Shown in pieces: positions 1 to 20,766 of a stretch of 33,605 bases of DNA. Numbering within the stretch: position 1 is the first letter of the stretch; every line of letters starts with the position of its first letter. Below the pieces are notes generated by a model, which made no database searches, was not told where the DNA came from, and worked only from the letters and a program-made list of their open reading frames with translations. The DNA lies in assembly GCA_947449695.1 (NCBI GenBank), contig CANFST010000035.1, positions 1 through 33,605 of the forward strand, in the 5' to 3' direction. The DNA comes from Chitinophagales bacterium (GTDB lineage: Bacteria; Bacteroidota; Bacteroidia; Chitinophagales; CAIODY01). The translations under genes and the position numbers were made by a program.

Positions 1-161
1 AAAAGAGCTATTTCATTTTGTTGTTGTTCGATAATGGCTATTAGGTTTTGGCTGGTGTTATCGTGTTTTAAAATAATAATTTGTTCAGCAGCTACTGTGC
101 CTCTTACTTCTAAAGCATATTGTGGTGTGGTGGTGCGTATGCCTACGTTGGTAGTTGCAAT
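1..161 (-). CDS. Partial fibre/adhesin-like frame running off the left edge, start unclear
   Basis: Read leftwards on the minus strand, positions 161 to 1 are open in a frame different from gldE and give a peptide beginning IATTNVGIRTTTPQYALEVR. The pattern NVGIxTTxPxYALxVxG is a familiar signature of Bacteroidota secreted or tail-fibre-like proteins, where it precedes a repetitive or coiled stalk. The visible continuation is Gln/Glu-rich (IIEQQQNEIAL), which fits a helical stalk. The frame is closed by a TAA at 162-164, so the motif begins only five codons after a stop, and no ATG is visible. Either the gene starts at a non-ATG codon inside the end of gldE, or this is a frameshifted or truncated fragment. 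The stop of gldE (143-145) lies inside this frame. The motif is clear; the gene model is not. Confidence 0.4.
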   Translation of the reverse strand, partial: MATTNVGIRTTTPQYALEVRGTVAAEQIIILKHDNTSQNLIAIIEQQQNEIAL

Positions 162-1498
162 TTAGCCATTGGGCTTATTTCCACTTTCACTTTTGCAATT
201 CGCATTTTATTCATTTGCTGCACAGTCAGCTTAAATTGTTTGTATTGTGCAAATTCATTCAGGTGCGGTATTTTACCAAATAATTCTAAAAACAAACCTG
301 CCAGTGTATCGCTTTCACCTTTCACTTCATCAAAGGTTTCGGTAGGAATAGTCAAAACTCGGCAAACATCATTCATCAGCATCTTTCCTTCAAACACAAA
401 AGTGTTGTCATTTATTTTCTGGTAATTAAATTCTTCGCCTTCATCAAATTCATCTTTGATATCGCCAATAATCTCTTCTAAAATATCTTCCAATGTTACC
501 AGCCCGGTTGTTGCGCCATATTCATCTACCACAATAGCCAGGTGGCTTCTAAGCGATTTGAACTCTTTCAGTAAATCATCAATTTTTTTATTTTCGGGCA
601 CAAAAAATGGTGGTCGAATCAATTCGTGCCAATTAAAGTTTTCATCTTTATCTGAATGCAGCAATAAATCTTTAGTAAATAAAATTCCTTTAATCGAATC
701 AATATCTTCCTGATAAATGGGTATCCGGCTGTAACCAACTTCATTCACAAATCGTAATAACTCTTTAAAGTTAATGGTATAATCAGCCGCCACAATATCT
801 GGTCGGGCTTTCATAATTTGTTTGGCAGAGATGGTTCCAAATTTAGCGATACCTTTTAGTATGCTCATTTCCTGCTTGGATGTTTTATCGTGCAACGCCA
901 GATCTATCGCATGATTCAGTTCATCAGTATCTATTTCAGTTTGTTTTTTGCTCAGCAATTTTGTTTCGATAATATTCGTAAACGAAATTAAAATATAGCT
1001 CAATGGCGAAAATATTTTTGCCAGCAATTTCAATGGTAATACCATGAACAAACACACTCTTACATTCCGTTGCGATGCATATACTTTTGGTAATACTTCG
1101 CCAAACAGCACCAGAACAAAGGTTACAGCTACTATCTCAATAAAAAATTTCAGAACTACCGATTGAATATTGTAAGAGTTGATGATGGCATAAGTGCAAA
1201 CCACAATGCCAATATTCACAAAGCTATTCGCAATTAAAATAGTGGCTAATAATTTCCGGGGCTGCTCTAACAATACAATTATTGCATTGGCAGATGATTT
1301 ATACTTTTTTCGCAGCAGCGATAACTCTTTTGTTGTTAAAGAAAAGAACGCTACTTCGGCACCAGCCACTAATGCACTGAAAATGAGTAAGAAAAAAACA
1401 ATGGCATAAAAAATTAAAACCGAACTGCCAGCAGTGCTGGCCTGCAAAAGCAAAGTGCTTAATAAATGTATATTTCCCGACGGAGGTTGCGTATCCAA
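143..1498 (-). CDS. gldE: Gliding-motility-associated membrane protein GldE (CNNM/CBS/CorC family)
   Basis: This 451-residue protein has the order of the HlyC/CorC (TlyC) family. An N-terminal CNNM (DUF21) membrane domain occupies about residues 25-190 with several hydrophobic segments. A CBS pair follows at roughly 205-330 (ISAKQIMKARPDIV, then the region around VDEYGATTGLVTLEDILEEI). A C-terminal CorC_HlyC domain lies near 345-440. The family fits ion transport. In Bacteroidota the gldE branch sits beside ssb and is linked to gliding and T9SS function, and the ssb-gldE order is kept here. The usual downstream gldD is not visible; an unrelated fibre-like frame follows. The start is TTG at 1498. 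A TAA closes the frame 18 nt upstream and no ATG is near, and MDTQPP resembles the MDPxP start of family members. A terminator lies between ssb and this gene, so it may need its own promoter or read-through. Confidence 0.88.
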   Translation of the reverse strand: MDTQPPSGNIHLLSTLLLQASTAGSSVLIFYAIVFFLLIFSALVAGAEVAFFSLTTKELSLLRKKYKSSANAIIVLLEQPRKLLATILIANSFVNIGIVVCTYAIINSYNIQSVVLKFFIEIVAVTFVLVLFGEVLPKVYASQRNVRVCLFMVLPLKLLAKIFSPLSYILISFTNIIETKLLSKKQTEIDTDELNHAIDLALHDKTSKQEMSILKGIAKFGTISAKQIMKARPDIVAADYTINFKELLRFVNEVGYSRIPIYQEDIDSIKGILFTKDLLLHSDKDENFNWHELIRPPFFVPENKKIDDLLKEFKSLRSHLAIVVDEYGATTGLVTLEDILEEIIGDIKDEFDEGEEFNYQKINDNTFVFEGKMLMNDVCRVLTIPTETFDEVKGESDTLAGLFLELFGKIPHLNEFAQYKQFKLTVQQMNKMRIAKVKVEISPMAKLQLPT

Positions 1499-4136: not shown

Positions 4137-7100
4137 TTAATGAAAATGCAAATCTTTAAATTCTAATTTCACTCCATCACCTTTTTTGTAAGTAGCTGCT
4201 AATCTGATATCCATGCCCTTATTCCAGGAAGTGGTTTCACAAAACCAACCATCGCAATCACTATCACACAAACCCCCACCCACATAAGCAGAGCCTTGTA
4301 AATCTAAAAATACTTCACCTTGCATGGTGATGTTTGCATTCATAATTGCGCTCTTGGCATCGCTCATCATTTGAACTGGATTGATAGATGGTGATGGAAT
4401 ATTCAAATCAATATGTCCGTAAACACCAGCCCCACCAGTAGCTGACAAATCAGCACCACAACAAGCTATACCAATGCTTGCACCTGCACCTGCATGTATA
4501 TACACATAGGCTTGTCCACCTAAATCGTAACTAATTTTCGGATAATCCAAACTGATTCCTGTGTAAGAGTTTAAATGAATGGCATGCTCCAAAGTGCAAT
4601 GCACAATTGGGTCTAAATTGATATTGATTTGCGGAATAATCGGCACAGGCACTGCAGCTTCGGTGCAGAACAATGCACCTGTGTAGCTTCCTTTAGGGAA
4701 TGGGTCTGGCAAAACATTTTTATAGAAATATTGCGCCAACACATTTTGTATGTTGCCGCTAATCGTTCCTTTCCCAACGAAAAAACCACATTTACCACTG
4801 TTGACAGGAGAGTTTTGAATGTTAGTTGCAATTGCACTTCCAAACACATACCAATCGCCACCACCAAATTTCAAATCAACGTCGCTTGATAAATGGCAAT
4901 TACTTAAATCTTGTTCGATGTGCAAATTTCCGATTAAAGCTTTTTGCCCAAAGTCATAAGTGATGCTTCCAGAGCCTAATCCATCAACAGCCACATTCTT
5001 CACTCCCACTTTTTGATTGTCTGCTACCAAATCACCTTTCACAGTAAAGTTCATGTGCTTTTTCGCATCTGCAATTCCATCTAATCCAAATAAATCACCT
5101 TCAAAAGCAAAGTTGTTCCACTCAGTATTATTGCTCATAGTGTGCATGGAGCCGGTAATTTTTTCTAAACCTGAAGTTCCTCCACTGTAAACAAATTTTT
5201 GATTGGTGTTATCAACTGCAATAGTTGTTACTGCATTTGTTTTGGTTAGCGTAACTTCAAAAGCATAATTCACCGAAGAATTTTGGTCTTTAATTTTTCC
5301 ATGCAACACTAAATTATTGTTTTGAAATTCCTGATTAGACGAATTGAAATTCACAATCACTCCTTTGGTGTTTAAGCTTAAACCGCTGAATGGAGCATCA
5401 TTTGGCATCAATTTCAATTTCCCGTTGACAGCTTCATATCGCATTGTGAATGCATCAGTAAGTTCACTCATTTTCGGGATTTGCAAATCCAATTTTCCTC
5501 TGAAATTTATTGAACCAGTGGTAGCAAATGCCATTGCAGGATGAAATTTAGAAACGCTGTTTACTGTTACCCAAGGAGTAGTTTCGCTTAGCATAATTAC
5601 ATTTTCATCATCGCTTCCACGACTGTAAAGCGAAACATTTTTCAAATTGATGACATCATTGGAAGCTAAGCCAGGTAGGCCATTCAACGACGCAAGCACA
5701 TCTCCTTTTAACGGTAGCATCGAAAGTGACCAAGCACCATTTGTACCATAACCAACATCAAAACCAAATGAAACCGATGTATTGTTTTTATCTAAATTGA
5801 GAGGAATGTTACCGCCTAATTTTATTTTTTCGACATCATAAGTTCCATAAATAAATCGACTATAATCAATCAAAACATTTGTGGCTGGAACAGTTAAAGC
5901 CCCAGCAACAATGCTGCCTGTAGCATTTAATCCGTTAGAAGTTAATGTCCAGTCTTTCACTGCAAATTTCCATTTATCCATTGGGATAGTAAGGCTGCTA
6001 CCTGATGCACCATGTGTTTCATTTTTATCAATATCAATATTTCCAACATTCACATTGATGTCAGGTGAAGCTAATTGTGGAATGTTGGTGTGCAACATCG
6101 TGTTCAAATGCAAGCCGTCTTTATCAAATGTTGAACCTGCAACTTTTGCTTCACCAGCATATTTGTTGTGCAATAAATACCAAACATTTTTATAGTCCCA
6201 AGTACTTACTTTAAATGAACTGGTTAAAGAAGTTGGTGTTGTTCCATCGCTGTTGTATAAGTCCAAAAATTCAGCTACATCATAACCCAAAGTTTTTCCA
6301 TTATAGTTGGAGGTACTTATATACATTGAGTTTGCAGCATCCTTCACCGAAAAACCTTTTTTGAAATTTGCTCCGTCTATAAACAATGGGGACTGAATTT
6401 TCCCGGAATTATCACTCAATTTTTTTACAAACGCACCAAATGCAGAGTAAGAAAATCCACCATAACTATTGAACACTTTTATGTTTTTAGATTGTGTTGT
6501 ACTCCAGAAGTCATTCTTCGGAACAGCCAACGGAAGCCCATTGGCAGCTTTTTTTGAGGAAGCAACTATCTCAATATTTTCAAAATCGAAGTTGTTGTTT
6601 TTTATAGCATCGCTTGATGTAACCAACACACTTGGTATCGAAAAATAGTTATTCGCATTATTCACCAGCATACTTCCGCTAATGAAAATTTTACCAGTGT
6701 TTGGCCCAATTCCGAAAGTAATATTTTTTACTTCAATTGGGAAGCCAAGCAAAGATGATATATCCATCATGTCAAATCTTGAAACAGTTAATTTAATTTT
6801 TGCACCTTGATATGAACTCATATTCACAACTTTGGTGGAGCCAAAATAATTTTTCATTGTAGTTGGTGGAATGGCAACAATATTGTGTGTGCCATCGGCT
6901 GGAACGCCCATTAATTCGGCATCGCCATTAATATCTGTATAAGCAACGGGAACAGTAAATGGTAAATCTTCCACATAAATTTTCACATTCACAGCTGGCT
7001 GACCTTTATCTGTAACATGACACAAAACTTTTTTACAAGGTTTCAATTCGAAATTAAAAATGTTTGTGTACTTAGCATCATCATCAATACTCACAATTTT

Positions 7101-10100
7101 TGATTCGAAGCAACTGCCTGAAGTTTGTGATTCCAACTTCACTAAAAAAGTTTTTGCTGATGAAGCAAACTCTAATTTCGCTCTATGTACTGCATGTTTA
7201 GTCCCGTTGTTATCATTTTCCCATACAGTTTCATCAATTGAAGTTACTTGCTGTGAACCATTGATAATAGTAGCTTTTACAGGAATGTTATTCGCCACAT
7301 AGTCACTGCCAGGCGAATGAGCTTTGATAATGATGTGGTGCTGTCGATGTTTTAATTTGAAAGTAATTTTTGGTTGGTCGCCAAAGAAATTAATGTCTTG
7401 ATAAACTGTGAGAGGCTCGTATGTATCATTGTCATCAGGATAAGCTGTGAATTTTACCCCTTTGGCATAAGGCGCACTCATGGTGAGTGTTTGAGAAACC
7501 GGAAACAACGTTGGTACAAACATGTCCCCAACTTTTATTGAACCAAATGTTTCGTTGGTTTCACTCCAGCTAAAATCATCACCAACAACTACTTTTGCAT
7601 GAATAAAATTTCCGTCATCTGCATCTACTACTTTTCCTAAAACTGTTGCAGGCAACTCCATGAATATTTTACTTAACGCAGCTTTTTCACCACGTTTTAT
7701 TTTTGCGCCACCATTTACAAAAACCCCAGTTGGTGTAAATCCATTCTTACTAAAGAAAACTAATTTTCTTCCTGATTTTGTTTTGTCATTTGTATTCACA
7801 TTAAACTGAAACTTACCATTCATGCCAGTTTGCATCGAAGCTTCAGGCGTTGCACCATACTTTGAACAAATTGTTCCTTTAAACCATGCACCCGAAAAAC
7901 CATTGTTACCAAAAGTTGATTCGTTGACGGCAGCTTCAGGAATATCGTACACTTCAACCATTACACCTTGCAATGGATTAGTGCTGTAATTACTGTTTGG
8001 ATAAACAGCGCCCATTATAACTGGGGTTTGCGCCCAGGTATAAACAGATGTTGTTAGAGTAGTTTGATGTAAATCTTTTTGAGCGTTATATTCCTTGATG
8101 AATTGTGTGCTGTTCCAAAAAGTTTTTTGTTCGTTTTCATTATCATTAATAGCCGAAAATGCATTGATAATTTCGCTACTGTAATTGTCAAAACTTTGCT
8201 CAGTTGATTCAGTAAAATAATAATAACGGTCTTGTGCATTTTGCAAATCATTCAACACAACATGCTTAAATAAGAACTTTCCACCGCTTGTAGTCGTGGC
8301 TTCATCAATCACTTGATAAGTCAATCCATCAACGATTTCTTTTTTTGAAAGCCCGAATAATTTATTTTCGTTAATCGGAAAACCATCAGGCAATTTTTTA
8401 GGATTCACACACAAATAAACTCGTTCACCAGATTTTTTAATAGGGTTTAAAATTCCCCCAACATCATTTATTCCTAAATCGGTATTCACTGCTTTTAATC
8501 CATCCACTTGCACATTTGCTTCACGAACATTAGCTAACATGTCGCCCAAATCGTAGTTGTATCCCGGCTCTACGAGCAAATCATTATCAGGGCTATAATA
8601 ATATGGGCTTTGTACTTTGATTCGTAACACATAATATTCCTTTCCGCTTACAGGTTTTGCATTTCCATTTTTATCATAAAAATTGCCAGTTGAATTTTGA
8701 TATTGATTTACGCCGTTTTCACCCAATTGATAAAAAGTAGTGTTGCCAGTATTTAATGAAAATTGACCATCACCATCTGTAGTGCCAGCCGCAAAATCAT
8801 TGCTGTTGCCGTTTATAGGATATACAATGCCATCAGCATCGTTTTTAATTACCCATTGTCCAACTAATTTTATTGGCATATTCGCCAGTGGTTTTGCATT
8901 AGTCATGTTGGGTGAACCATCATCATTTGCAAAAACTCTTTTCAATTTTCCACTCACTGCTAACGACATTTGATAGGGAGCTAAATCCATTTCCTGCTCA
9001 ACATAATTTCCCATATTGATGTCAAACTGAAAATCTTGAAAGCAATCATTAAACGGGCAACTATTCCAAGAGAATTTGGTTGGTTGATACGCTACATTTT
9101 TTCCGTCAGTTGGTTTTGCATAGATGTAATAATTATCGCCTGCGCTCATTTCATCAGCTGGATATATGTTTTGAATTAAATCGTTAAAAGTCACACTACT
9201 ATTCATTTTGGCAGTTTTCTTAGCATAAACCAAATACTGACGTTTGTCAATAGTAATCAAAGAAGTTTTTCCATCGCTGCTGCACTCATTATCAGGTGCA
9301 CCAGAAGATTTTTTATATTTCAAAACATACACATCCACATCATAATTGTATGCACCTTGAATAGGAGTTATCTTTCCTGTGTAATAATTCTTTTGCTCAG
9401 CAAAATTTTTCAAATTCACTTTTAATGAATAATTTTTTGCTTGCTGATACACATTGGCATCGTCTTTCAAAATTTTTCCTTGAATAAAAAAAACTGTTCC
9501 GCCTGAATAATAATAAGGACTCCCATATTTCACCCATAAACCAGTTGCATAAGCCAAATGATGAGATTTTCCATCGGTTGCTTGTGCTGCGCCTAAAGAA
9601 AAAGTATCTAAAATTTTTGATTGAAATGAAGAAGGAATATCAAAATGAAAATTGCCAGCATCATCAGTTTTTGTGTGGGCAATTATTGCACCGCAATTAC
9701 TTGTTTGTGGATATTTCGGGTCGGGCTTGGTAGATAAAAGTGGAATAGATGAATTGCCCAATGAAGCCAAACTATCTACCATTGCATACACATATTTCCC
9801 TTTACTATCTTTACTTACAGCACGTTTCACTTTATATACTTCGCAGATTGAATACACTTCAACTAACTTAATAGAAGCATTTTTTAAAGGATAATTTTCA
9901 GGGCGATTATTATCATCTGTTGATGAATTTCCAAAACCAAATTTCTTGTTTCCTACTTTTTTCTTCTCTACAAAAAAATAATTTGCCTTGCCTGAAATGC
10001 TTGAATTTCCAGTATTAGTTTGAATATCTGATTTTGAAATTTGTGAAGAATCTTTCCCTGAAGATTTATAATCAAACGTGCAAACTTCACTCACCCCATC

Positions 10101-10913
10101 ATTTTTAAAATACACTTTATCATTCGGGTCAGTTGCCTTCACCCTCCATGCATATTTTTTTCCAGCCCTCAATTCAGGGTCAATTGCATTGTATAAATAA
10201 GTGGGTGAATTGATAGTTTTTTCAAAATAAGGAATCGTGTTTGTCGCAAAAGCATCATTAGGATTTTGTCCTTCATACAATTCTAACACAGTCAATGTAA
10301 ATTGAGTATTGATAGGAGCTCCAGGGCTATTCACCCAACTAAAAATTAGTGATTGCGGATTTTGTCCGTTCACAGCTCTATCACACATTGGCGCAATTAG
10401 TCGTGGAGGATTTACATCGGAAACGTGAATCGGGGCAGAACACTGCTCACTTCCAATTGGCTGACGAGTTAAGTAATCATAAGCCTGAAAACAAATTTTG
10501 TAATTACCTTCTGGTATTCCGTTTGTTCGAATTATAGTTTGCGTTGAAACACCAGCAACATCCACATAATCCCAATCAAAATAATCCCTCAAATCATCAC
10601 CAGTCATACGTTTCGGAATATTCGCTTGTAATTCAAAAGGTTTAGAGGGATAGTAATTATCTTTTGTCTTGATGCTTACGCCATTGTCGCCAATTACGCT
10701 TCCCTGAAAATAAATTTGAAAGTTGGTGCCAGCATTGCCCAACGCTGTAACAGTTATCACCGCTCTATTTTCGTAAATTAAATAGTCGGTAATTTTTGTA
10801 GAATAAGGTGGCACAATAACCGTGTTGACGGTAACACGATTGGGTGTTTGTGCTTTGATAAAAATTAAAAACGAAAAAAACAGAACTGCTGTGAATAGTA
10901 GAATTCTTTTCAT
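4137..10913 (-). CDS. Giant TANFOR-like secreted/envelope protein (2258 aa)
   Basis: A signal peptide covers about residues 1-21 (ending FLIFIKAQ). The mature N-terminus, VNTVIVPPYSTKITDYL, resembles the TANFOR domain named after Tannerella forsythia, and the module runs to about residue 170. FN3/Ig-like and carboxypeptidase-regulatory-like beta-sandwich repeats follow, for example PLQGVMVEVYDIPE near 970, GKVVDADDGNFIHAKV near 1090 and GQPAVNVKIYVEDLP near 1300. From about 1400 to 2100 the sequence becomes a long run of short alternating beta-strands rich in Gly, Asn and Leu. The C-terminus has Cys pairs (CDSDCDGWFC) and ends KLEFKDLHFH, with no T9SS type A or type B domain. It follows the sigma/anti-sigma/sensor genes by 53 nt and precedes the FN3 protein by 36 nt. 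Its role is unknown; a structural surface or periplasmic protein is the likeliest reading. Confidence 0.78.
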   Translation of the reverse strand: MKRILLFTAVLFFSFLIFIKAQTPNRVTVNTVIVPPYSTKITDYLIYENRAVITVTALGNAGTNFQIYFQGSVIGDNGVSIKTKDNYYPSKPFELQANIPKRMTGDDLRDYFDWDYVDVAGVSTQTIIRTNGIPEGNYKICFQAYDYLTRQPIGSEQCSAPIHVSDVNPPRLIAPMCDRAVNGQNPQSLIFSWVNSPGAPINTQFTLTVLELYEGQNPNDAFATNTIPYFEKTINSPTYLYNAIDPELRAGKKYAWRVKATDPNDKVYFKNDGVSEVCTFDYKSSGKDSSQISKSDIQTNTGNSSISGKANYFFVEKKKVGNKKFGFGNSSTDDNNRPENYPLKNASIKLVEVYSICEVYKVKRAVSKDSKGKYVYAMVDSLASLGNSSIPLLSTKPDPKYPQTSNCGAIIAHTKTDDAGNFHFDIPSSFQSKILDTFSLGAAQATDGKSHHLAYATGLWVKYGSPYYYSGGTVFFIQGKILKDDANVYQQAKNYSLKVNLKNFAEQKNYYTGKITPIQGAYNYDVDVYVLKYKKSSGAPDNECSSDGKTSLITIDKRQYLVYAKKTAKMNSSVTFNDLIQNIYPADEMSAGDNYYIYAKPTDGKNVAYQPTKFSWNSCPFNDCFQDFQFDINMGNYVEQEMDLAPYQMSLAVSGKLKRVFANDDGSPNMTNAKPLANMPIKLVGQWVIKNDADGIVYPINGNSNDFAAGTTDGDGQFSLNTGNTTFYQLGENGVNQYQNSTGNFYDKNGNAKPVSGKEYYVLRIKVQSPYYYSPDNDLLVEPGYNYDLGDMLANVREANVQVDGLKAVNTDLGINDVGGILNPIKKSGERVYLCVNPKKLPDGFPINENKLFGLSKKEIVDGLTYQVIDEATTTSGGKFLFKHVVLNDLQNAQDRYYYFTESTEQSFDNYSSEIINAFSAINDNENEQKTFWNSTQFIKEYNAQKDLHQTTLTTSVYTWAQTPVIMGAVYPNSNYSTNPLQGVMVEVYDIPEAAVNESTFGNNGFSGAWFKGTICSKYGATPEASMQTGMNGKFQFNVNTNDKTKSGRKLVFFSKNGFTPTGVFVNGGAKIKRGEKAALSKIFMELPATVLGKVVDADDGNFIHAKVVVGDDFSWSETNETFGSIKVGDMFVPTLFPVSQTLTMSAPYAKGVKFTAYPDDNDTYEPLTVYQDINFFGDQPKITFKLKHRQHHIIIKAHSPGSDYVANNIPVKATIINGSQQVTSIDETVWENDNNGTKHAVHRAKLEFASSAKTFLVKLESQTSGSCFESKIVSIDDDAKYTNIFNFELKPCKKVLCHVTDKGQPAVNVKIYVEDLPFTVPVAYTDINGDAELMGVPADGTHNIVAIPPTTMKNYFGSTKVVNMSSYQGAKIKLTVSRFDMMDISSLLGFPIEVKNITFGIGPNTGKIFISGSMLVNNANNYFSIPSVLVTSSDAIKNNNFDFENIEIVASSKKAANGLPLAVPKNDFWSTTQSKNIKVFNSYGGFSYSAFGAFVKKLSDNSGKIQSPLFIDGANFKKGFSVKDAANSMYISTSNYNGKTLGYDVAEFLDLYNSDGTTPTSLTSSFKVSTWDYKNVWYLLHNKYAGEAKVAGSTFDKDGLHLNTMLHTNIPQLASPDINVNVGNIDIDKNETHGASGSSLTIPMDKWKFAVKDWTLTSNGLNATGSIVAGALTVPATNVLIDYSRFIYGTYDVEKIKLGGNIPLNLDKNNTSVSFGFDVGYGTNGAWSLSMLPLKGDVLASLNGLPGLASNDVINLKNVSLYSRGSDDENVIMLSETTPWVTVNSVSKFHPAMAFATTGSINFRGKLDLQIPKMSELTDAFTMRYEAVNGKLKLMPNDAPFSGLSLNTKGVIVNFNSSNQEFQNNNLVLHGKIKDQNSSVNYAFEVTLTKTNAVTTIAVDNTNQKFVYSGGTSGLEKITGSMHTMSNNTEWNNFAFEGDLFGLDGIADAKKHMNFTVKGDLVADNQKVGVKNVAVDGLGSGSITYDFGQKALIGNLHIEQDLSNCHLSSDVDLKFGGGDWYVFGSAIATNIQNSPVNSGKCGFFVGKGTISGNIQNVLAQYFYKNVLPDPFPKGSYTGALFCTEAAVPVPIIPQININLDPIVHCTLEHAIHLNSYTGISLDYPKISYDLGGQAYVYIHAGAGASIGIACCGADLSATGGAGVYGHIDLNIPSPSINPVQMMSDAKSAIMNANITMQGEVFLDLQGSAYVGGGLCDSDCDGWFCETTSWNKGMDIRLAATYKKGDGVKLEFKDLHFH

Positions 10914-10966: not shown

Positions 10967-11431
10967 TTATTCCCCCTTTTGAAGTTCTTTCAATCGTTGC
11001 ACTAATAAAAGCGTCCATTGTCTTTCTGCTCGGTAGAGCTTTACAATTTTTCGGTTGGAAATTATTTTTTTGAACTCAATAAAATATTTTTTCTTCAAAT
11101 CCAATTCGTGTTGTTCCATCACAAAACTTTCTGAAATTGCTTTTTCAATTTCAGCTTCAGTCATGTTATCGTAATTCTTTTTGGTGTCGTGCAACAAATC
11201 TTTTTTGTCTTGTCTGGTTGCTTCTAGCTCTTTTCGATATTGATTGTAAACAGGCCAAAATGCTTGCGATTCGGCAGGTGTTAAGTCCATTTTCTTGGTA
11301 ATGAAAGCAACTTTTTCCGCTTCCAATTTTTCTTTTACGCTGCTGTTTAATTCACCATCTTGGGCAAAAGAAATTTTGCAAAACGAAAAAATCGTTGCAA
11401 TTAAAATCAGTATGTAGTTCTTAATCTTCAA
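10967..11431 (-). CDS. Spy/LTXXQ-like periplasmic helical protein, likely envelope-stress sensor
   Basis: This 154-residue protein has a signal peptide (MKIKNYILILIATIFSFCKI, then SFAQ). The mature part is almost entirely helical and charged, with MDLTPAESQAFWPVYNQYRK near residues 48-67, a variant of the LTxxQ motif of the Spy/CpxP family. In Bacteroidota such proteins next to ECF sigma genes are often annotated as sensors of ECF-type sigma factors. The family binds or senses misfolded envelope proteins. The start is TTG at 11431; no ATG allows the signal peptide to be kept. The gap to the upstream repeat-containing membrane protein is only 14 nt. Position third in a sigma/anti-sigma cassette supports a regulatory role. 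The sensing ligand cannot be read from the sequence. Confidence 0.75.
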   Translation of the reverse strand: MKIKNYILILIATIFSFCKISFAQDGELNSSVKEKLEAEKVAFITKKMDLTPAESQAFWPVYNQYRKELEATRQDKKDLLHDTKKNYDNMTEAEIEKAISESFVMEQHELDLKKKYFIEFKKIISNRKIVKLYRAERQWTLLLVQRLKELQKGE

Positions 11432-11445
11432 TGTTGTTTTCTTAA

Positions 11446-12345
11446 TTAAATCGCATCATTCAAAGTTGATTCATCTACTTCATTTTCCAAATATTCTTTC
11501 AACTCTTTTTTCTCTGACTCTTTTTTGTTGTCAATTTGCGGAATCACTTTTTTTGTTGTAGATGCTTTTGCAACAGGATTTTCCATCAATTGCAAATCTT
11601 CCACTTCTTCCGCATGATTTTGCAAATATGCGTTAATATCTTGAGCTGTTAAAGCCTGTTCAGTATTCTGATTCGGTTGATTGAAAAATATTGCAACCCC
11701 AATCAACAAAGCTGCAACCGAAGCTGCTGCTGCAAATTTGAAAGTAGCTTTGCTGAACAATGAAACTACTTTTCCTTTTTCCGATTGTTTTACTTTAGCT
11801 AAAATCTCTTCAACGTTGTTTTCAAAGTAATTTTCGGGAACGCTGAACATATTGATTTTGCTCACTTCTGAAGCTTCTTCCTCTATGCCAATCAATTTGG
11901 TTTGCGCCAAAATCTTATCCGCTAAATTGTCGAAATAGTTTTCAGGTACATTAAAAGCATTTACTTTACTGAATTCCAACGCTTTCTCTTCTTCGCTGAC
12001 TAATTTGGTTTGTGCCAAAATTTCATCAGCTAATGTTTCAAAATAATTTTCTGGAACGCTGAAACTATTGATTTTACTATAATCTAAAACAGGCTCATCA
12101 AACTTCGTCTGCGGTAAATTTGGAGCAAATTCCTTGAAATAATTTTCAGGTGAATTAAAATGATTCAACTTACTGAAAGGCAAAATGTTTTCAGTTTCCA
12201 AAGCCGATTTTGCTTTTTGCAAATGCAAATCAACTTGACTTTCAAAGTAACCTTGCGGCACTTGAAAACCATTGCGGTTGCCAATTGCAGCCACAATGGG
12301 TGAAATTTCGTTTATTTCTTTCAATATGGAATCACTCGTGTTCAT
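11446..12345 (-). CDS. Single-pass membrane protein with five VPENYFE repeats, probable anti-sigma factor
   Basis: This 299-residue protein has no signal peptide and one hydrophobic helix at about residues 203-221 (FKFAAAASVAALLIGVAIFF). The N-terminal 200 residues should therefore be cytoplasmic and the last 75 or so periplasmic. The cytoplasmic part holds five repeats of the pattern N-x-F-x-VPENYFE-x-L-A-D-x-I-L-A-x-T-K, with the Tyr at residues 33, 69, 101, 137 and 173. No zinc-binding HxxxCxxC anti-sigma motif is present. Single copies of an F-x-VPxxYFE motif are known in Bacteroidota proteins encoded after ECF sigma genes. It lies 49 nt after the sigma gene and 14 nt before the Spy-like gene, which makes it the natural candidate for sequestering the sigma factor. 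The periplasmic tail is acidic (NHAEEVEDLQL, ENEVDESTL). Confidence 0.7.
   Translation of the reverse strand: MNTSDSILKEINEISPIVAAIGNRNGFQVPQGYFESQVDLHLQKAKSALETENILPFSKLNHFNSPENYFKEFAPNLPQTKFDEPVLDYSKINSFSVPENYFETLADEILAQTKLVSEEEKALEFSKVNAFNVPENYFDNLADKILAQTKLIGIEEEASEVSKINMFSVPENYFENNVEEILAKVKQSEKGKVVSLFSKATFKFAAAASVAALLIGVAIFFNQPNQNTEQALTAQDINAYLQNHAEEVEDLQLMENPVAKASTTKKVIPQIDNKKESEKKELKEYLENEVDESTLNDAI
11788..12267 (-). repeat. Five in-frame VPENYFE repeats (about 108 nt period)
   Basis: Five tandem units encode FQVPQGYFE, FNSPENYFK, FSVPENYFE, FNVPENYFD and FSVPENYFE. They are spaced 36, 32, 36 and 36 residues apart. Units 3 and 4 are the most alike, sharing the downstream ILAQTKL block, which points to recent duplication within the gene. 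Confidence 0.85.
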
Positions 12346-12394: not shown

Positions 12395-12937
12395 TTAATC
12401 ATTTTCTTTTACAAACAGTTCTATTTTTTTCACTGCATGGTGATAACTGGCTTTCAATGCTCCTTCGCTAGTACCTAACACTTTGCTCATTTCTTCGTAA
12501 GGCATTTCATCATAGTAACGTAAATTGAAAACTAATTTTTGTTTTTCGGGCAAAGTCAAAATGGCTTTCTGCAATTTCATTTCCATCTGATTGCCATCAA
12601 AATACTTATCACTGCTCAATTTATTGGCTAAATGATTTTCCATATCATCCAATGAATAAGAAAATTTCTTTTGTTTGTTGGCCAAAAAAGTGAGGCATTC
12701 ATTTGTACCAATTCGATACAACCAAGTGTACAACTGACTTTCTTCTCTAAAGTTTTCCAAGCCTTTCCATGCTTTGATGAAAGCATTTTGCAAAACATCA
12801 TTCGCATCATCATGGTCTAAAACCATACGACGGATGTGATAATAAAGTCGTTGCTGATATTTTACAACCAACGCCTTGAAAGCCATATCGCGGCTTGCAG
12901 GAATTTTATATTGCAATAAAATTTCTTCGTCGGTCAT
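12395..12937 (-). CDS. ECF RNA polymerase sigma factor
   Basis: This 180-residue protein is a sigma-70 family factor of the ECF group and directs RNA polymerase to an alternative set of promoters. Region 2 spans about residues 20-90, with the core-binding and -10-recognition segment around DHDDANDVLQNAFIKAWKGL and the Trp-rich YTWLYRIGTNECL. Region 4 spans about 125-175 (LPEKQKLVFNLRYYDEMPYE, then the helix-turn-helix LGTSEGALKASYHHAVKKI). Regions 1.1 and 3 are absent, as expected. The ATG at 12935-12937 lies 11 nt after the transketolase stop, and the probable anti-sigma gene follows by 49 nt. The regulon cannot be stated. The neighbouring Spy-like, TANFOR and FN3 genes are the obvious candidates for autoregulated targets, or else the assembly problem it senses. 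Confidence 0.95.
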   Translation of the reverse strand: MTDEEILLQYKIPASRDMAFKALVVKYQQRLYYHIRRMVLDHDDANDVLQNAFIKAWKGLENFREESQLYTWLYRIGTNECLTFLANKQKKFSYSLDDMENHLANKLSSDKYFDGNQMEMKLQKAILTLPEKQKLVFNLRYYDEMPYEEMSKVLGTSEGALKASYHHAVKKIELFVKEND

Positions 12938-12948
12938 TTAGGTTTAGG

Positions 12949-13905
12949 TTAGTTCTTTCTTGCAATCACTTTCAATGCTGCGCTAACAATTTGCGGTGTA
13001 TCCAAACCATATTTCTGCATCAATTCTTCAGGTGTTCCGCTTTCGCCAAATGAATCATTTACTGCAATCATTTCCATAGGAGCAGGATTGTTTAAAGCTA
13101 AAACCTGCGCTACTGCATCACCCAAACCGCCATTGCGCTGATGTTCTTCCGCTGTAACCAAACATTTTGTTTTTGCAACGGATTTTAAGACCGCCTCTTC
13201 GTCAAAAGGTTTAATGGTGTGCATGTTGATGATTTCAACGCTAACATTTTGTTCGGCTAAAATCTTTCCAGCTTCAATCGCTTTCCATACCAAATGTCCG
13301 CAAGCAATGATGGTTACATCAGTGCCTTCACATAAAATTTGTGCTTTACCGATTTCAAATTTTTGTGTAGTGAAGTTGGCACATTTAGGTCTGCCAAATC
13401 TTAAATAAACTGGTCCATGATATTCAGCAATTGCAAGCGTTGCAGCTTTAGTTTGATTGTAGTCGGCAGGAACAATTACCGTCATGTTGGGTAGCATACG
13501 CATTAAACCAATGTCTTCTAGAATCTGGTGTGTTGCGCCATCTTCACCCAACGTAAGCCCAGCATGGCTTGCACAGATTTTTACATTTTTATCTGAATAA
13601 GCAATAGATTGACGAATTTGGTCGTAAACCCTGCCAGTACTGAAATTGGCGAATGTGCCTGTGAAAGGAATTTTGCCGCCTATAGTCAAACCAGCAGCAA
13701 CGCCCATCATATTCGCTTCTGCAATGCCGCATTGCACAAAGCGTTCAGGAAAATCTTTAATAAAAGCATTCATTTTTAATGAACCTGCCAAATCAGCGGT
13801 AAGTGCCACTACATTAGGATTTATTTTGCCTAATTCGTGTAAGCCATCGCCAAATCCTCCACGGGTTTCACGTTCGTCTATTTTTTGAATATCGGTAACT
13901 TTCAT
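12949..13905 (-). CDS. Transketolase C-terminal subunit (split transketolase)
   Basis: This 318-residue protein matches the C-terminal half of transketolase: the pyrimidine-binding domain (about residues 10-170) and the C-terminal domain (about 190-310). Transketolase moves two-carbon ketol units between sugar phosphates in the pentose phosphate pathway using thiamine diphosphate. The Glu of GIAEANMM (E63) is the residue that activates the ThDP aminopyrimidine. Other conserved pieces are [34 protein letters not shown] and the active-site-side RFGRP. The N-terminal ThDP-diphosphate subunit is normally encoded just upstream in organisms with split enzymes, but here the upstream side is a 384-nt intergenic stretch and a divergent gene. 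The partner must lie elsewhere. The sigma gene follows after 11 nt, so this gene heads the long minus-strand run. Confidence 0.92.
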
Positions 13906-14289: not shown

Positions 14290-17200
14290 ATGCGCAAAAT
14301 ATACTACTACCTCATTGGCTTGTTTTTACTTTTTAATACCGCATCCAAAGCGCAGGCTATTCATGCATGTTTTAGTGCAGGCGGTGGACAAACATTTCCT
14401 GTAACGCAATGCGGTGGATTTGTTTTACCCCTAACTAATTGTTCGACTGGTACTTATGATTCAGCAGTTTGGAAATTGCAAATAAGTAGTAATTATAATT
14501 GCACAGGCCCTTGGGGAATCACTTTTGTTACCACAAAGGGTGGAGCACAAGCAACTGCTGGAACTGGATATTCGTTAAGTGTAGATGGTTCTTATAAGGT
14601 TTGTTTATTGATTTATAATAGAACTACTGGTCAAGTTGATTCAAGCTGCCAATGTATTGCAGTCGTTTATCCGTTTCCAATTCCTAATTTTTCAGTATCC
14701 GATTCATTTCATTGTGGAGGATTGACAACTACTTTTACGCCACAAATTCAATCGGGTACAACCCCTTATGGTCCCATCACTTGGTATTTTGGAGATAATT
14801 TAACTCAGACTACTAACACTGTATCAAATGTAACACATACTTATGCTTGTAAAAATTCTAATCCACCATGCTATTCAGTGACCATATCAGTAACTGATGC
14901 TCATGGTTGTTCTAAAGTAGTAACTAAGCCATGTTTAGTAAATGTGCCATGTAAACCATCGGCTACAGTGTCTGTAACGGGTGGCAGTGCTTGCTCAACT
15001 CCAACATCAATAACCTTTCATGCAACCCCATCAGGATTATATGGGCATGGAATTTATTCTTGGTGGTTTCCACCAGGAAGTACTCCTCCATTTACCCCAA
15101 CCTTTGGTCCATCAAGTTCAGTAGGCAATGTAACGCAACCTTTTTCAACTTATGGTTGCAAAAATGTAATTCTTGCAATTAAAGATTCAGCAACTGGTTG
15201 CAGCGATACAGCTAATGTTAACAATGCGGTTTGTATTCAAGGAATTACTGTAACAAGTTTATCTTCTAATTTAAACCATGTATGTTGTAGTCAGCCTTTT
15301 GCGATTACTTTTAATGCAAGTTCAAATCCGGTTTCAACCCCTCCGTGCGCAATTGTTGGAACCCTTGTGGCTACTCCGGTTGGAGGTGGCGCCACGATTG
15401 TATTAGGGCAAATTTCTTCCACCTCACCAAAGACTGTTTCATTGCCTTGTACATCCTCTGCGGCGGTAACCTATAATATCTGTTTTCAAAATAGCACAGT
15501 AACTAATCTATGTAATAATTGCACACTGAATTACACTGGCTGTTTGCAGGTTACAGTTAATCCATCCCCAACTGCTCAAATTAATTTAACACCACCAACA
15601 TTAGCCAGTTATTGTTCGAAAGGGCACCAATTTTGTTTTAATGCCAGTACCCCAAGTAATAATTTGCCAGGTTGTTCATATGCTTGGTATCTTGGAAGTA
15701 CCTCAAATACTGCATTGAGCAATACATCAACATTTTGTTACACATTCCCCAATTTTGGCACTTATAAAATTTATTTAAAGGTATGTCAAAGTGCTTTAAA
15801 TGGTGGATGTTGTGCATTGGATTCAATTGTTGTTTCACAAAATCCACCAACTGGTAGTTTTATAGTTTCCAATACTCGTGGTTGTGATACTTTGTGTGCT
15901 AAATTTACCGTATCCCCAAGCACCGATTCATTATATATTTATAATTTTGGTGATGGCACAATTGTAACATCGAATCAGGATACAATGCATCATTGTTTTC
16001 ATAGTAATTTGGATACTTGTTATACTGTTACTATTATCCATATTGCCCATTCTTTGGGTGGATTTGTTTGCGTTGATACATTAAGACAAAAGGGAATTAT
16101 AAAAATTGGGCATAAAATGATTCCAAGTATTACCATGAGTCCGCCAATACAATGTTTGGTGCATAAACAAGCTTGTGTTTACGTTTATCCAAATAATCCA
16201 GGATTAATTCCACCAACAGGTGCATCGAATAGTACTTGTTTATCAAAAGCTTGTCATTGGTATTTCACAAAACCTTTTGACCCTAATCCTATTGTTCAAA
16301 GTTATGTGTGTGATAGCCCGAAAGTGTGTTTTGACGATACTGGACATTTTGATGCACATTATGTGATTATTAATAATACTTGTCCTGATACAGTTGTGGT
16401 TCATAATGCAGTAGTAATTAATGGTGTTTTAGGTGATTTTAAAGATTCATTGCATTGTGCTTCAAATGGAACTTTAACAAATTTTTGTGTTACAATTAAG
16501 TCGAATATAAAAGTATTTCCAACCCCAACTAATCCTCATGATTCAACTCATATTAAATTTATAGTAAATAATAATACTTGCGGAAGCCCTACTATTTATA
16601 ATTTTGCTGTTGCTCCAAATGGACCACCACCAATATTTAATCATTGTTTTTGCACTGCCGGTAGTTACACTATCACTATGATTACAAAAAATTCTGCAAC
16701 GGGCTGTCCTCCTGACACAACCATTAAAACTATTACTGTTGCTTCTTATCATGCTGTAATGAATTTAAGTCCAATTTCGACCAATCCAATTGGATGCTTT
16801 GTTTACCCTTATGGATTTTGTTTTACTTCTATTGGTTCTTCACCAGCTTTACCTGATAAAATCACATGGTCATTTGGCGATGGTAAAACTTTAAATAATG
16901 CGACTGCCCCTTGTCATACTTATGATTCATGTGGCACATATATTGTAAAATTAAGATTAGCCGATAATTCAGGTACTTGCAGCGATTCGACTCAATTAAC
17001 CGTTGCTCTGCATGATATTTACCCAAATATAACAGCTTCATTGGTATCACCTTGTAGCAACTGTTATGTATTCCATAATAGCACTGTTTTCTGTGGTGGA
17101 ACACCAGGAACTACTACTATTCATTTTTATAATATTGTTGGAGGGGCTACTATCCCTGATATTGTAATTCATGGTGCTTGGACAAGTTATACATTTTGTA

Positions 17201-20200
17201 GCCCTGCTGTAGTTAATTCAGCTTTAGCAACAATAACAGATAGTTTAGGATGTATAAAAACATTTAATGTTGGTCTGCCGGGAATTGTAGGCATTGTGCC
17301 ATGTTTAGCAGGTGTAACTGATACAGTAATATGTGTAGGCGCTACATTAAATATGAGTGATTGTGTAACAGGTTATTATGTTTATAACAGAGCATGGACA
17401 TTTTCTACAGGGGCTTGTAATCCAAATGGCACGCCTGTTTCTACCACATCTACTTATAGCCATACTTTTACAAGTAATGGGTATTATTATGTCAATTTAC
17501 ACCAAAGTAATCCATTTGGATGTTCGAGTGATACTTGTGTAAGAATTCATGTGCAAAATCCTATTGCTGCTTTTAAGAGCAGAGATACAATTCCATGTCC
17601 TGGTAGTTTCGATACTCTTATTAATAAATCAACTGGTGCATACAATACTTTAATTGTCACAATGAGTGCACCATCGATTAATTTTTATCAAACATTCACA
17701 TACAATAGAGTTATCGGTGTATCAAATATTCCAGATACAGTTCTCCTTCCATTAGGGTTTCCTGCTGATTATAATATTTGTTGGAAGGTAATTAGTTCAA
17801 CAGGATGTTCTGATTCTGTTTGTAGAAATTTACATGTGGCAGGACCAGTTGGTCATTTAAATTGCAGTAATGTTTATGTTTGTGTTGGCGATTCTGTTTG
17901 TTGCACATTAACAACCAATTCGATTGGAAATCCTTTTGTTAGGTTTTCTGATGGTACTTATGAATACTTAAGCTATAATTCATCTGGCATTTATAATTTC
18001 TGCCATCGATATACATTCCCAGGCCATCAATTGGTACAATCATTTATAGATGATGGTGCAGGATGCAGTTACCCTTTATTTGACACAGTAAATGTGGATG
18101 GTCCTATTGTGAATTTTTCATGGGCACCCTATAAAAAAGATTTTTGTGGTTCAGCGAATGTAGGAATGTTAGATTCATCAATTGCTTCTTTATATCCAAT
18201 AGATACTTCAAAATATAAGTGGATTATTTTTAATTCAAATGGTAGTGTTTTTGCAACTTACTCACACAGAAATCCTGTTATAAATATTTCAACACCTGGT
18301 TCTTATTCAATTATGGAAATAGTGAAAAGTACTTTTGGTTGCTCGGACACACTGCGAAAATCATTCATCAATGTTTATCCTTATCCAATTGCTCAGTTTA
18401 ATGCAAATCCAGATACAATTTGTATAAATCAATGTGTTAATTACCTAAACACTTCTATAAATCAAGATAGTGTTGGGGGATATAAATGGTTGCTTAATTA
18501 TCCTTCGGCCTCTGTTTATAGCACGGCAACTAATTATCAATATTGCTATGCAACCACTGGTTCTTTTCAATCGGTATTAATTGATAGTAGTGTACATGGT
18601 TGTATTGATACAAGTAGTATTCAAACAATAATTGTTTTGCCAAGCCTAACTGCTGGTTTTACACAAAGCGATGATACAATTTGTGCGTTAAGTGGGAATG
18701 TATTTTTCCATAGTACATCAATTCCAAATTCAGGTATAACATGGCAATGGAATTTTGGCGATGGTTCTACTATTTTAGGACCTGGCAATTTTCCAAATCC
18801 TTCTCATTTTTTCAATATGCAACCTGGGTCAAAAGACACATGCTTTGCAGTTAAATTAATAATCAGAAATTCATCAGGTTGTATTGATAGTTCAGTGCAT
18901 TATGTTTGTTTGTCCAACGTGCCAACTGCCGGGTTGATAGTTTCTAATAAAATTGGTTGCAGTCCATTAGTCACTTCATTTACTGATAACAGCATTTCAT
19001 TAGAACCAATTGCTTCTTATGTAATTGATTTTGGAGATGGTTCTCCACTTTACAATTCTTCTACAGCTCCTTCTGCATATGTGCATAGTTATATTAATAT
19101 AAGTCATACTAATACAGCTACTTATGTTGCTACTTATACTATCACTTCATTGTTTGGTTGTAAAAGCAGTTTGACTGATACATTTATAGTTTATCCAGTT
19201 CCATCAGTTTCGTTTATTCAAGACAATGATTCACTTTGTGGAAATGCAGTGGTGGTAAATTTTAGTAGTACCTCAACACCAAATTCGGGAGTTAATTTTA
19301 CCTGGAATTGGGGTGATGCCACAGCAAATACTTCTGGTAATTTCCCATCTACTGCACATGTATTTCATTTACCAGGAGGATTGGGAACAGCTTGTTATCC
19401 AACTCAATTAACTATTACAAGTCCGCATGGATGTCTTGATTCATTCAATCATACCATTTGTATTTCATCTGTTCCTATAGCGCATTTAACAATAGGGCCT
19501 AATGCCAGCTGCAATCCATTATCTACAACGTTTACAGATTCAAGTAATTCATTGGTACCAATTGGTAATTTCCTAATTGATTTTGGCGATGCATCAGCTA
19601 ACTTCAATTCACCAACTGCTCCAAATGGAGTAACGCATGCCTATTCTAACTTGAGCCACTCTGTTTCAGCAAAATATGTTGCTAATTATACTATCACTAC
19701 TCAATTTGGTTGTTCGCAAACTATAAAAGATACTTTTAGTGTATATCCAATTCCGGTAGCATGCTTAATTGCAACAGATTCAGTGTGTCCGCAAGTAAGT
19801 ACACCAATTGGTTGTGTTGCGCAAGCTGGGTTGCAATATCATTGGTATCATCCGATTGGATCAAATATTTTTAGTCCAAATGATACCACTGCAAATCCGA
19901 ATGTAGCTCCAGCAGTATCAACTACTTATAGTTTAGCAGTTAAGAATCAATGGGGATGTGTTGATACGGACTCTGTTTATATTTTTGTAAAAGGCTTATT
20001 GATTCCTTATGCCGGCAGAGATACTAATATTTGTGCTGGTGGCGTAGTTCATTTGTTTGCACAAGGAGGATTAAGTTATGTATGGCAACAATTAAGCGAT
20101 TGGTCAATTGTGAGTGATAGCGCAAGTTTCCATATTGCACCTAAAGTTTCAAATACCTATGAAGTAACAATCAGTGGTGATTGTAATACTGATTCAGTTA

Positions 20201-20766
20201 AAGTGCATGTAAATGTTTTCCCAACTCCATCTGTCACTATTAATCCTACAGAGGCAACTATTATAGCCGGACAAAAATATAACGTTACAGCAGTGCCTTC
20301 TGGTTTAGGTTTATTGCAATGGCATCCTGATTATAATATTAATTGCGATACCTGCAGAAGCGTAATTATGTCGCCAGATATCAATACAACTTATACTGTT
20401 GTTTTAACAGATGTTTATGGTTGTATAGATTCTACCGAAATCACTATTTATGTTTTATGTGATAAACAAAATTCTATTTATGTGCCTAATGCTTTCGAAC
20501 CAAGCGTTGGCGCATCAAGTCGTAACGCATATTTTTATGTGCAAGGAACAGGTGTGAAAGAATTAACTTATTTAAGGGTATTTAATAGATGGGGAGCTGA
20601 AGTATTTAATGCAGAACATGTTCCAATTAATAAGCCAGAAGCAGGTTGGGATGGTACTTTCAATGGATCTCCTGTAGGCATTGATGTTTATATGTACCAA
20701 ATGCAAGTAGAATGCAGCAATGGTAATTTGTTTCCAATTTCAGGGAATGTTACTATTATTAAATAA
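14290..20766 (+). CDS. Giant Cys-rich PKD-domain surface protein with type B T9SS sorting domain (2158 aa)
   Basis: A signal peptide covers about residues 1-22 (MRKIYYYLIGLFLLFNTASK, then AQA). The body is a long array of PKD and PKD-like Ig domains. FGDG-type signatures are seen near residue 165 (WYFGDN), 555 (YNFGDG), 860 (WSFGDG), 1485 (WNFGDG), 1580 (IDFGDG), 1675 (WNWGDA) and 1765 (IDFGDA). The protein is rich in Cys, about 14 in the first 235 residues, often in GCS/GC-D contexts at domain ends. The last 100 residues (from about 2060) form the gliding-motility-associated CHU_C domain: VPNAFEP, then LRVFNRWGAEVF, then GWDGTFNGSPVGIDVYMYQM. This is the type B T9SS signal, so the protein should be exported by T9SS and attached to or released from the surface. 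The usual PNxDGxND loop is altered. Likely roles are adhesion, gliding or matrix; no catalytic domain is visible. The gene stands alone, with ATG at 14290. Confidence 0.88.
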   Translation: MRKIYYYLIGLFLLFNTASKAQAIHACFSAGGGQTFPVTQCGGFVLPLTNCSTGTYDSAVWKLQISSNYNCTGPWGITFVTTKGGAQATAGTGYSLSVDGSYKVCLLIYNRTTGQVDSSCQCIAVVYPFPIPNFSVSDSFHCGGLTTTFTPQIQSGTTPYGPITWYFGDNLTQTTNTVSNVTHTYACKNSNPPCYSVTISVTDAHGCSKVVTKPCLVNVPCKPSATVSVTGGSACSTPTSITFHATPSGLYGHGIYSWWFPPGSTPPFTPTFGPSSSVGNVTQPFSTYGCKNVILAIKDSATGCSDTANVNNAVCIQGITVTSLSSNLNHVCCSQPFAITFNASSNPVSTPPCAIVGTLVATPVGGGATIVLGQISSTSPKTVSLPCTSSAAVTYNICFQNSTVTNLCNNCTLNYTGCLQVTVNPSPTAQINLTPPTLASYCSKGHQFCFNASTPSNNLPGCSYAWYLGSTSNTALSNTSTFCYTFPNFGTYKIYLKVCQSALNGGCCALDSIVVSQNPPTGSFIVSNTRGCDTLCAKFTVSPSTDSLYIYNFGDGTIVTSNQDTMHHCFHSNLDTCYTVTIIHIAHSLGGFVCVDTLRQKGIIKIGHKMIPSITMSPPIQCLVHKQACVYVYPNNPGLIPPTGASNSTCLSKACHWYFTKPFDPNPIVQSYVCDSPKVCFDDTGHFDAHYVIINNTCPDTVVVHNAVVINGVLGDFKDSLHCASNGTLTNFCVTIKSNIKVFPTPTNPHDSTHIKFIVNNNTCGSPTIYNFAVAPNGPPPIFNHCFCTAGSYTITMITKNSATGCPPDTTIKTITVASYHAVMNLSPISTNPIGCFVYPYGFCFTSIGSSPALPDKITWSFGDGKTLNNATAPCHTYDSCGTYIVKLRLADNSGTCSDSTQLTVALHDIYPNITASLVSPCSNCYVFHNSTVFCGGTPGTTTIHFYNIVGGATIPDIVIHGAWTSYTFCSPAVVNSALATITDSLGCIKTFNVGLPGIVGIVPCLAGVTDTVICVGATLNMSDCVTGYYVYNRAWTFSTGACNPNGTPVSTTSTYSHTFTSNGYYYVNLHQSNPFGCSSDTCVRIHVQNPIAAFKSRDTIPCPGSFDTLINKSTGAYNTLIVTMSAPSINFYQTFTYNRVIGVSNIPDTVLLPLGFPADYNICWKVISSTGCSDSVCRNLHVAGPVGHLNCSNVYVCVGDSVCCTLTTNSIGNPFVRFSDGTYEYLSYNSSGIYNFCHRYTFPGHQLVQSFIDDGAGCSYPLFDTVNVDGPIVNFSWAPYKKDFCGSANVGMLDSSIASLYPIDTSKYKWIIFNSNGSVFATYSHRNPVINISTPGSYSIMEIVKSTFGCSDTLRKSFINVYPYPIAQFNANPDTICINQCVNYLNTSINQDSVGGYKWLLNYPSASVYSTATNYQYCYATTGSFQSVLIDSSVHGCIDTSSIQTIIVLPSLTAGFTQSDDTICALSGNVFFHSTSIPNSGITWQWNFGDGSTILGPGNFPNPSHFFNMQPGSKDTCFAVKLIIRNSSGCIDSSVHYVCLSNVPTAGLIVSNKIGCSPLVTSFTDNSISLEPIASYVIDFGDGSPLYNSSTAPSAYVHSYINISHTNTATYVATYTITSLFGCKSSLTDTFIVYPVPSVSFIQDNDSLCGNAVVVNFSSTSTPNSGVNFTWNWGDATANTSGNFPSTAHVFHLPGGLGTACYPTQLTITSPHGCLDSFNHTICISSVPIAHLTIGPNASCNPLSTTFTDSSNSLVPIGNFLIDFGDASANFNSPTAPNGVTHAYSNLSHSVSAKYVANYTITTQFGCSQTIKDTFSVYPIPVACLIATDSVCPQVSTPIGCVAQAGLQYHWYHPIGSNIFSPNDTTANPNVAPAVSTTYSLAVKNQWGCVDTDSVYIFVKGLLIPYAGRDTNICAGGVVHLFAQGGLSYVWQQLSDWSIVSDSASFHIAPKVSNTYEVTISGDCNTDSVKVHVNVFPTPSVTINPTEATIIAGQKYNVTAVPSGLGLLQWHPDYNINCDTCRSVIMSPDINTTYTVVLTDVYGCIDSTEITIYVLCDKQNSIYVPNAFEPSVGASSRNAYFYVQGTGVKELTYLRVFNRWGAEVFNAEHVPINKPEAGWDGTFNGSPVGIDVYMYQMQVECSNGNLFPISGNVTIIK
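18646..19755 (+). repeat. Two tandem copies of a 185-residue double-PKD unit
   Basis: Residues 1453-1637 and 1638-1822 of the giant align end to end with an offset of about 185. Each copy has an F-x-Q-x-D-D/N-D-x-x-C opening, an S-x-P-N-S-G / W-N-x-G-D core, a C-x-S/x-S-VP junction, an S-N/x-C-x-P-L-x-x-x-F-T-D second domain with I-D-F-G-D, and a VYPxP end. The boundary falls at about 19200. This is a two-domain duplication inside the PKD array. Confidence 0.75.

Follow-up and report, generated by a model that had tools for sequence, protein, structure and literature searches.

According to the consulted part of a coevolution study (PMC7406223), class I anti-sigma domains adjoin only 6% of the ECF sigma factors of Bacteroidetes versus 32% across phyla, and other anti-sigma classes may dominate in this group. 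One of the closest described systems is the cirY-cirZ-spy operon of Phocaeicola vulgatus. As stated in the consulted sections of its report (PMC13114119, Gut Microbes 2026), the deletion of cirZ raises cirY, spy and neighbouring genes, the operon is up more than 100-fold in colitis, and the species has a second sigma/anti-sigma/spy locus. In the CnrH/CnrY/CnrX system of Cupriavidus metallidurans (class II), a sigma factor, a short membrane anti-sigma factor and a periplasmic sensor are combined, and the helices of CnrY wrap the closed sigma factor, as described in the available passages of PMC7406223 and PMC4598750. The Dma/Reo anti-sigma factors of Bacteroides belong to a single-TM type specific to Bacteroidota and encoded beside an ECF sigma factor, and Dma is presented in the accessible text of PMC13088901 as having a disordered tether and a C-terminal beta-barrel. 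Further leads, from sources consulted in part, were SigW-1/BT1816 of B. thetaiotaomicron and PG1660/PG1659 of P. gingivalis. Literature searches on multi-copy anti-sigma factors and on Flavobacterium/Spy retrieved nothing relevant among the entries listed, and no mention of motif strings such as VPENYF was found in the literature searched.

The window, that is, the whole stretch of 33,605 nucleotides from a Chitinophagales bacterium analyzed here, contains an operon with the order described for cirY-cirZ-spy in the consulted sections, likewise in a Bacteroidota host: an ECF sigma factor gene, a gene for a single-TM repeat protein and a Spy-like gene. The ECF sigma factor, P0002 (180 aa, 12395..12937, minus strand), matched Sigma70_r2 (3.3e-16) and Sigma70_r4_2 (1.3e-14), and is the predicted target of the repeat-bearing membrane protein P0001 (ORF of 299 aa, 11446..12345, minus strand), itself a predicted anti-sigma factor. 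The third gene codes for P0003, a secreted Spy-like protein of 154 aa with a TTG start (10967..11431, minus strand). P0003 has a hydrophobic, signal-like N-terminus and a Spy-like LTPxEA segment, which by eye is conserved. It gave no Pfam hit with E up to 1, the Spy/CpxP profiles LTXXQ and Metal_resist included, the hits of PF13801 in the same genome exclude P0003, and a profile search of the PDB yielded nothing of use, its best match having an E value of 0.16. The TTG start is common to the window and the two genus orthologues L002 and L003, and could hold the translation of the Spy-like gene low.

The initial annotation had read P0001 as a probable anti-sigma protein. Its place in an operon with a sigma factor gene and the predicted docking both support this reading, and we consider it likely that P0001 crosses the inner membrane once and serves as anti-sigma factor to the ECF sigma factor encoded directly upstream, with its repeated units docking on the sigma linker.

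The conservation of the operon was analyzed with the repeat protein as the sole query. Matches to the repeat protein were detected in five of the six genomes of the same family, in 198 of 298 genomes of the same order (E up to 0.001) and in 149 of 198 genomes of a Bacteroidales sample (E up to 0.01), the weak matches of the latter probably including spurious ones. In the scan of named genomes the best 80 of 100 confirmed loci were used, and these span Mucilaginibacter, Pedobacter, Sphingobacterium, Flavobacteriaceae, Chitinophagales and Bacteroidales. A sigma factor gene was found directly upstream and on the same strand in 80/80, 31/32, 59/60 and 27/29 loci of four sets. The sets are not fully independent, since L113-L172 extend the coverage of genomes of which a part is already in L001-L032, and some of these loci recur among those of the named genomes. 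The remaining four loci (0, 1, 1 and 2 per set) had no callable repeat protein, so that the sigma factor was upstream in all 197 callable loci. The Spy-like gene followed the repeat gene in 76, 31, 58 and 26 loci of these sets.

The C-terminal half of a transketolase is encoded 11 nt upstream of the sigma gene (12949..13905, minus strand), and four Bacteroidales loci (L224, L232, L234 and L236) likewise have a transketolase-like gene immediately ahead of the sigma gene. The transketolases of L224 and L234 are 65% and 70% identical to that of the window, and the L224 sigma factor is 49% identical to P0002. The one-unit proteins of Bacteroidales are therefore probably orthologues by position, and the arrangement suggests an ancient link between the stress operon and the transketolase gene. 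Like P. vulgatus, according to the consulted sections of its report, the Bacteroidales genomes G450, G496 and G497 carry two such operons each (L224-L229), seen as two paralogous sigma/short membrane protein/Spy-like loci, the second of which has a divergent unit; the second protein of G450 starts with a segment that resembles a unit but has no Pro.

P0001 carries five units, each formed by F-x-[VS]-P-[EQ]-x-Y-F and a helix, all of them N-terminal of its single TM helix. The cores, all on the minus strand, begin at residues 27, 63, 95, 131 and 167: FQVPQGYF in unit 1 (aa 27-34, 12244..12267), FNSPENYF in unit 2 (aa 63-70, 12136..12159), FSVPENYF in unit 3 (aa 95-102, 12040..12063), FNVPENYF in unit 4 (aa 131-138, 11932..11955) and FSVPENYF in the membrane-proximal unit 5 (aa 167-174, 11824..11847). 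The tyrosines thus stand exactly where the initial annotation had placed them (residues 33, 69, 101, 137 and 173), and its five copies of VPENYFE are exact in units 3 and 5 but read VPENYFD in unit 4, VPQGYFE in unit 1 and SPENYFK in unit 2. The profile scores of units 1 to 5 were 21.1, 16.1, 36.3, 35.1 and 32.5 bits, unit 2 being the weakest and having no normal helix. Among 20,000 shuffles of P0001 a loose form of the motif occurred in two copies 6 times and never in three copies, and the strict form F.[VS]P[EQ].YF appeared as a single copy in 2 shuffles. At the DNA level the gene contains direct repeats of 65 and 53 nt. Across 515 regex-called units of the relatives the consensus was F-x-V-P-[ED]-[NG]-Y-F-[ED]-x-L-x-x-x-I-x-x-[RK]-[IV], with the Y of the core kept in 502 and the F in 506 units, frequencies that are biased since the regex limits the letters allowed at the core. 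Outside this selection, Leu was found at position +11 in 347 units and Ile at +15 and +19 in 356 and 260, respectively, a spacing that puts these hydrophobic residues on one helix face.

No anti-sigma family of Pfam matched P0001 with E up to 1, the antisigma model of NCBIfam gave 12.7 bits against a cut-off of 100, and none of six diverse relatives exceeded the cut-offs of Pfam or NCBIfam. A phmmer search of the PDB with E up to 5 returned no match, CnrY included, though with sequences so short and divergent a distant relation may escape detection. As had been claimed, no known zinc anti-sigma motif is present: HxxxCxxC is absent because there is no Cys anywhere in the protein. P0001 would share the membrane anti-sigma role with RseA and RsiW (class I), but differs from the class I and ZAS proteins (RseA, RsiW, ChrR) in having neither a class I or ZAS domain hit nor any Cys. 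In contrast to Dma, no more than 77 residues follow its TM helix, and in the orthologue L033 this part is modelled as helices or coil with no strands.

The topology of the protein, as read from its sequence, places the units in the cytoplasm. The TM helix, located at about aa 204-222 (11680..11736, minus strand) by the Kyte-Doolittle maximum and a charge count, is N-in by the positive-inside rule, and is followed by a periplasmic tail, aa 223-299 (11449..11679, minus strand), with a conserved C-terminal EYLENEVDEST segment. Among 161 relatives, 514 of the 515 units called by the regex lie ahead of the TM helix, and 154 proteins are richer in K+R before this helix than after it, with 5 ties. 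The sole unit called after the helix, at residue 229 of L041, seems to have matched by chance within the tail. The position of the units and the charge bias together bear out the earlier proposal that the repeats are cytoplasmic.

Structure prediction of the repeat protein with its neighbouring sigma factor, which the initial annotation had proposed as a check, placed a unit on the sigma factor in two relatives. Single-chain AlphaFold models were obtained with the sigma and repeat genes in one frame and the stops read through, a linker that favours proximity; the two models, L111 and L033, also share related alignment rows. The model of the one-unit L111 (30 rows) reached a pLDDT of 82.1 and a pTM of 0.69, with the blocks of residues 221-250 that cover the unit at 92, 94 and 86. 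That of the five-unit L033, a 90% orthologue of the window protein (54 rows), had a pLDDT of 69.9 and a pTM of only 0.45; the core of its unit 4, the counterpart of unit 4 of P0001, starts in a block of pLDDT 56 and runs on into blocks of 85 and 82, the other units lying at 45-80. The contacts were read from DSSP bridges only. Only two residues per model are assigned as strand or bridge and should therefore pair with each other: in L111, Phe120 of the sigma factor and Phe224 of the unit; in L033, Phe113 of the sigma factor and Phe328 of unit 4. Since the bridges fall at equal sigma and unit motif positions, the docking register is the same in both, and one unit is predicted to dock on the sigma2-sigma4 linker in the one-unit and the five-unit relative alike. 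The corresponding site in P0002 would be aa 102-116, including Phe113 (12590..12634, minus strand).

The modelled sigma factor was closed, like anti-sigma-bound SigW, CnrH and RpoE and unlike the RNA-polymerase-bound state. It superimposed on SigW bound to RsiW (Z 17.7, rmsd 2.7, 158 aligned) and on CnrH bound to CnrY in 4cxf (Z 15.3, rmsd 2.6, 154 aligned), whereas whole RNA-polymerase-bound ECF sigma factors were matched only at an rmsd of about 27. The system is like CnrH/CnrY in the shape predicted for its sigma factor, but the predicted docking of P0001 is centred on the linker. P0001 has no detectable sequence relation to CnrY, and the consulted parts of the reports do not present CnrY as an array of repeats.

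Another reading would give the units a different partner, for example the membrane surface, a protease adaptor or other units, while the sigma factor is held by the N-terminal segment or by the juxtamembrane helix. The N-terminal segment (aa 1-26 of P0001) is indeed conserved in the family and is modelled in L033 as a helix, with intermediate confidence, but several forms with one or two units have a short version of it or none, whereas the unit is common to all, and in both models it is a unit that lies on the sigma factor; this reading is improbable.

Conservation of the sigma linker is consistent with docking of the units at this site. Of 159 partner sigma factors, 148 have Phe at position 113 and the others Y, I, V or M. 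Some Bacteroidales sigma factors (L224) count against it, having no linker Phe though a unit protein follows. Covariation was analyzed by windows suggested by the model, an approach that was informative for the last unit and not clearly so for the first. For the core of the membrane-proximal unit (-1 to 4), covariation is strongest with residues 102-116 of the sigma factor, which rank first of 165 windows, and L103, L107, Y112, G115 and F113 are among the ten sigma residues that covary most with it; the helix of this unit covaries instead with the sigma N-terminus. For the first unit the same window ranks 56 of 165, the top one being 112-126. Over all position pairs, the top sigma-unit value was 0.18, and none exceeded the permuted maxima, which reached 0.19. 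The linker-by-core block supplied 3 of the top 30 pairs for the last unit and 5 for the first, numbers reached in 8 and 0, respectively, of 200 permutations that ignore relatedness.

A role of the units in serving several sigma paralogues was also considered and rejected: the nine other ECF matches in the same genome, one of them truncated, are at most 31% identical to P0002, and the linker motif was seen in none of them.

The comparison of repeat number among orthologues, also proposed initially, revealed from one to nine units, mostly one in Bacteroidales. In 161 distinct proteins, selected because they contain a unit and a TM helix and have a sigma gene next to their own, the number of units was 1 (26 proteins), 2 (18), 3 (62), 4 (14), 5 (9), 6 (25), 7 (2), 8 (4) and 9 (1), as counted by regex plus profile, so that degenerate units may be missed; L004, for instance, had four by the first profile and three in the tree count. 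A quickly built tree of 159 sigma factors, many of whose branches are weak, requires at least 39 changes of unit number, or 17 when the numbers are binned as 1, 2-3 and 4+. Mucilaginibacter has four to eight units and Pedobacter constantly three. The Mucilaginibacter locus L057 (3004-4113) has eight; its units 3 and 4 share 98% identity over 93 nt, and to judge from the nucleotide sequence an internal unit has recently been duplicated in frame.

In the window, units 3 and 4 are also the most similar pair, as had been noted initially (over 31 aa/93 nt they share 71% of the amino acids and 72% of the nucleotides), but the recent copy-number change deduced from it did not hold. Five units are present in each of the three members of the genus, and the pair is 81% identical (aa) in L003, a 61%-identical orthologue. 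These values of 71% and 81% approach or exceed the orthologous identities of 77% and 71%; the pair is thus old or partly homogenised rather than the product of a fresh change.

These frequent changes could also mean that only one or two units bind the sigma factor and that the rest are either spacers or neutral remnants left behind by tandem duplication. Most Bacteroidales manage with one unit (25 of 27 proteins), unit 2 of P0001 is degenerate and the core of unit 1 has 2 amino-acid changes relative to the 90% orthologue L033. Nevertheless, the cores of units 2-5 show 9 synonymous and 0 amino-acid codon changes in this same comparison, and the core Y and F are retained in nearly all of the called units, within the limits of the regex, so we regard neutrality of the additional units as unlikely.

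In the reading that we favour, each cytoplasmic unit would dock on the conserved sigma2-sigma4 linker as a short linear motif, and the docked unit would help to keep the sigma factor closed and away from RNA polymerase. Since the model has one unit per sigma factor, the remaining units may be spare or competing sites, which would either raise the local concentration and favour rebinding or hold several sigma factors per anchor. The second option, in its full form, is a sponge that takes one sigma factor per unit, with the copy number fixing how many are stored per anchor and, through this, the threshold for activation. Units 3-5 score almost alike (32-36 bits), the remaining units are free in the model and the copy number is variable, all as expected for such a sponge; on the other side, the units of an array differ (the first and last from the internal ones in Mucilaginibacter arrays such as L057, and the weak unit 2 in the window), and a spacing of about 30 aa may leave too little room for neighbouring units to be occupied at once. 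This is possible, but we hold it to be doubtful. The equivalence of docking sites proposed in the initial annotation was retained in part: predicted structures, linker conservation and covariation point to near-equivalent sites, but the units are unequal in score (16.1-36.3 bits). The periplasmic tail and the secreted Spy-like partner would probably sense envelope stress and release the sigma factor, either by proteolysis or by a conformational change.

The family of P0001, absent from Pfam and NCBIfam by name, is present in most of the sampled genomes of two Bacteroidota orders, and is a candidate for filling part of the anti-sigma gap of the phylum. The five units of the window protein contrast with the single unit of most Bacteroidales homologues; CirZ, likened to these by operon layout alone, may by analogy be a one-unit member, as we infer. 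The natural series of one to nine units in corresponding operons offers a direct measure of the effect of multivalency on a genetic switch. It is conceivable, though we would not expect it, that this is an undescribed phylum-wide anti-sigma family in which an array of 1-9 motifs, through in-frame gain and loss, tunes sigma storage or the sharpness of the switch. If so, the array would give a transcription switch a threshold that can evolve and be adjusted step by step.

Additionally, the window encodes a GldE gliding-motility protein (143-1498, minus strand; NCBIfam TIGR03520, 7.4e-152), whose gene is adjoined by that of a single-strand binding protein at 1583-2035. Three very large ORFs were also observed around the region, at 4137-10913 (minus strand, 2258 aa), 14290-20766 (plus strand, 2158 aa) and 25337-31999 (plus strand, 2220 aa), and the C-terminal end of the second resembles, by eye, a type IX secretion C-terminal domain.
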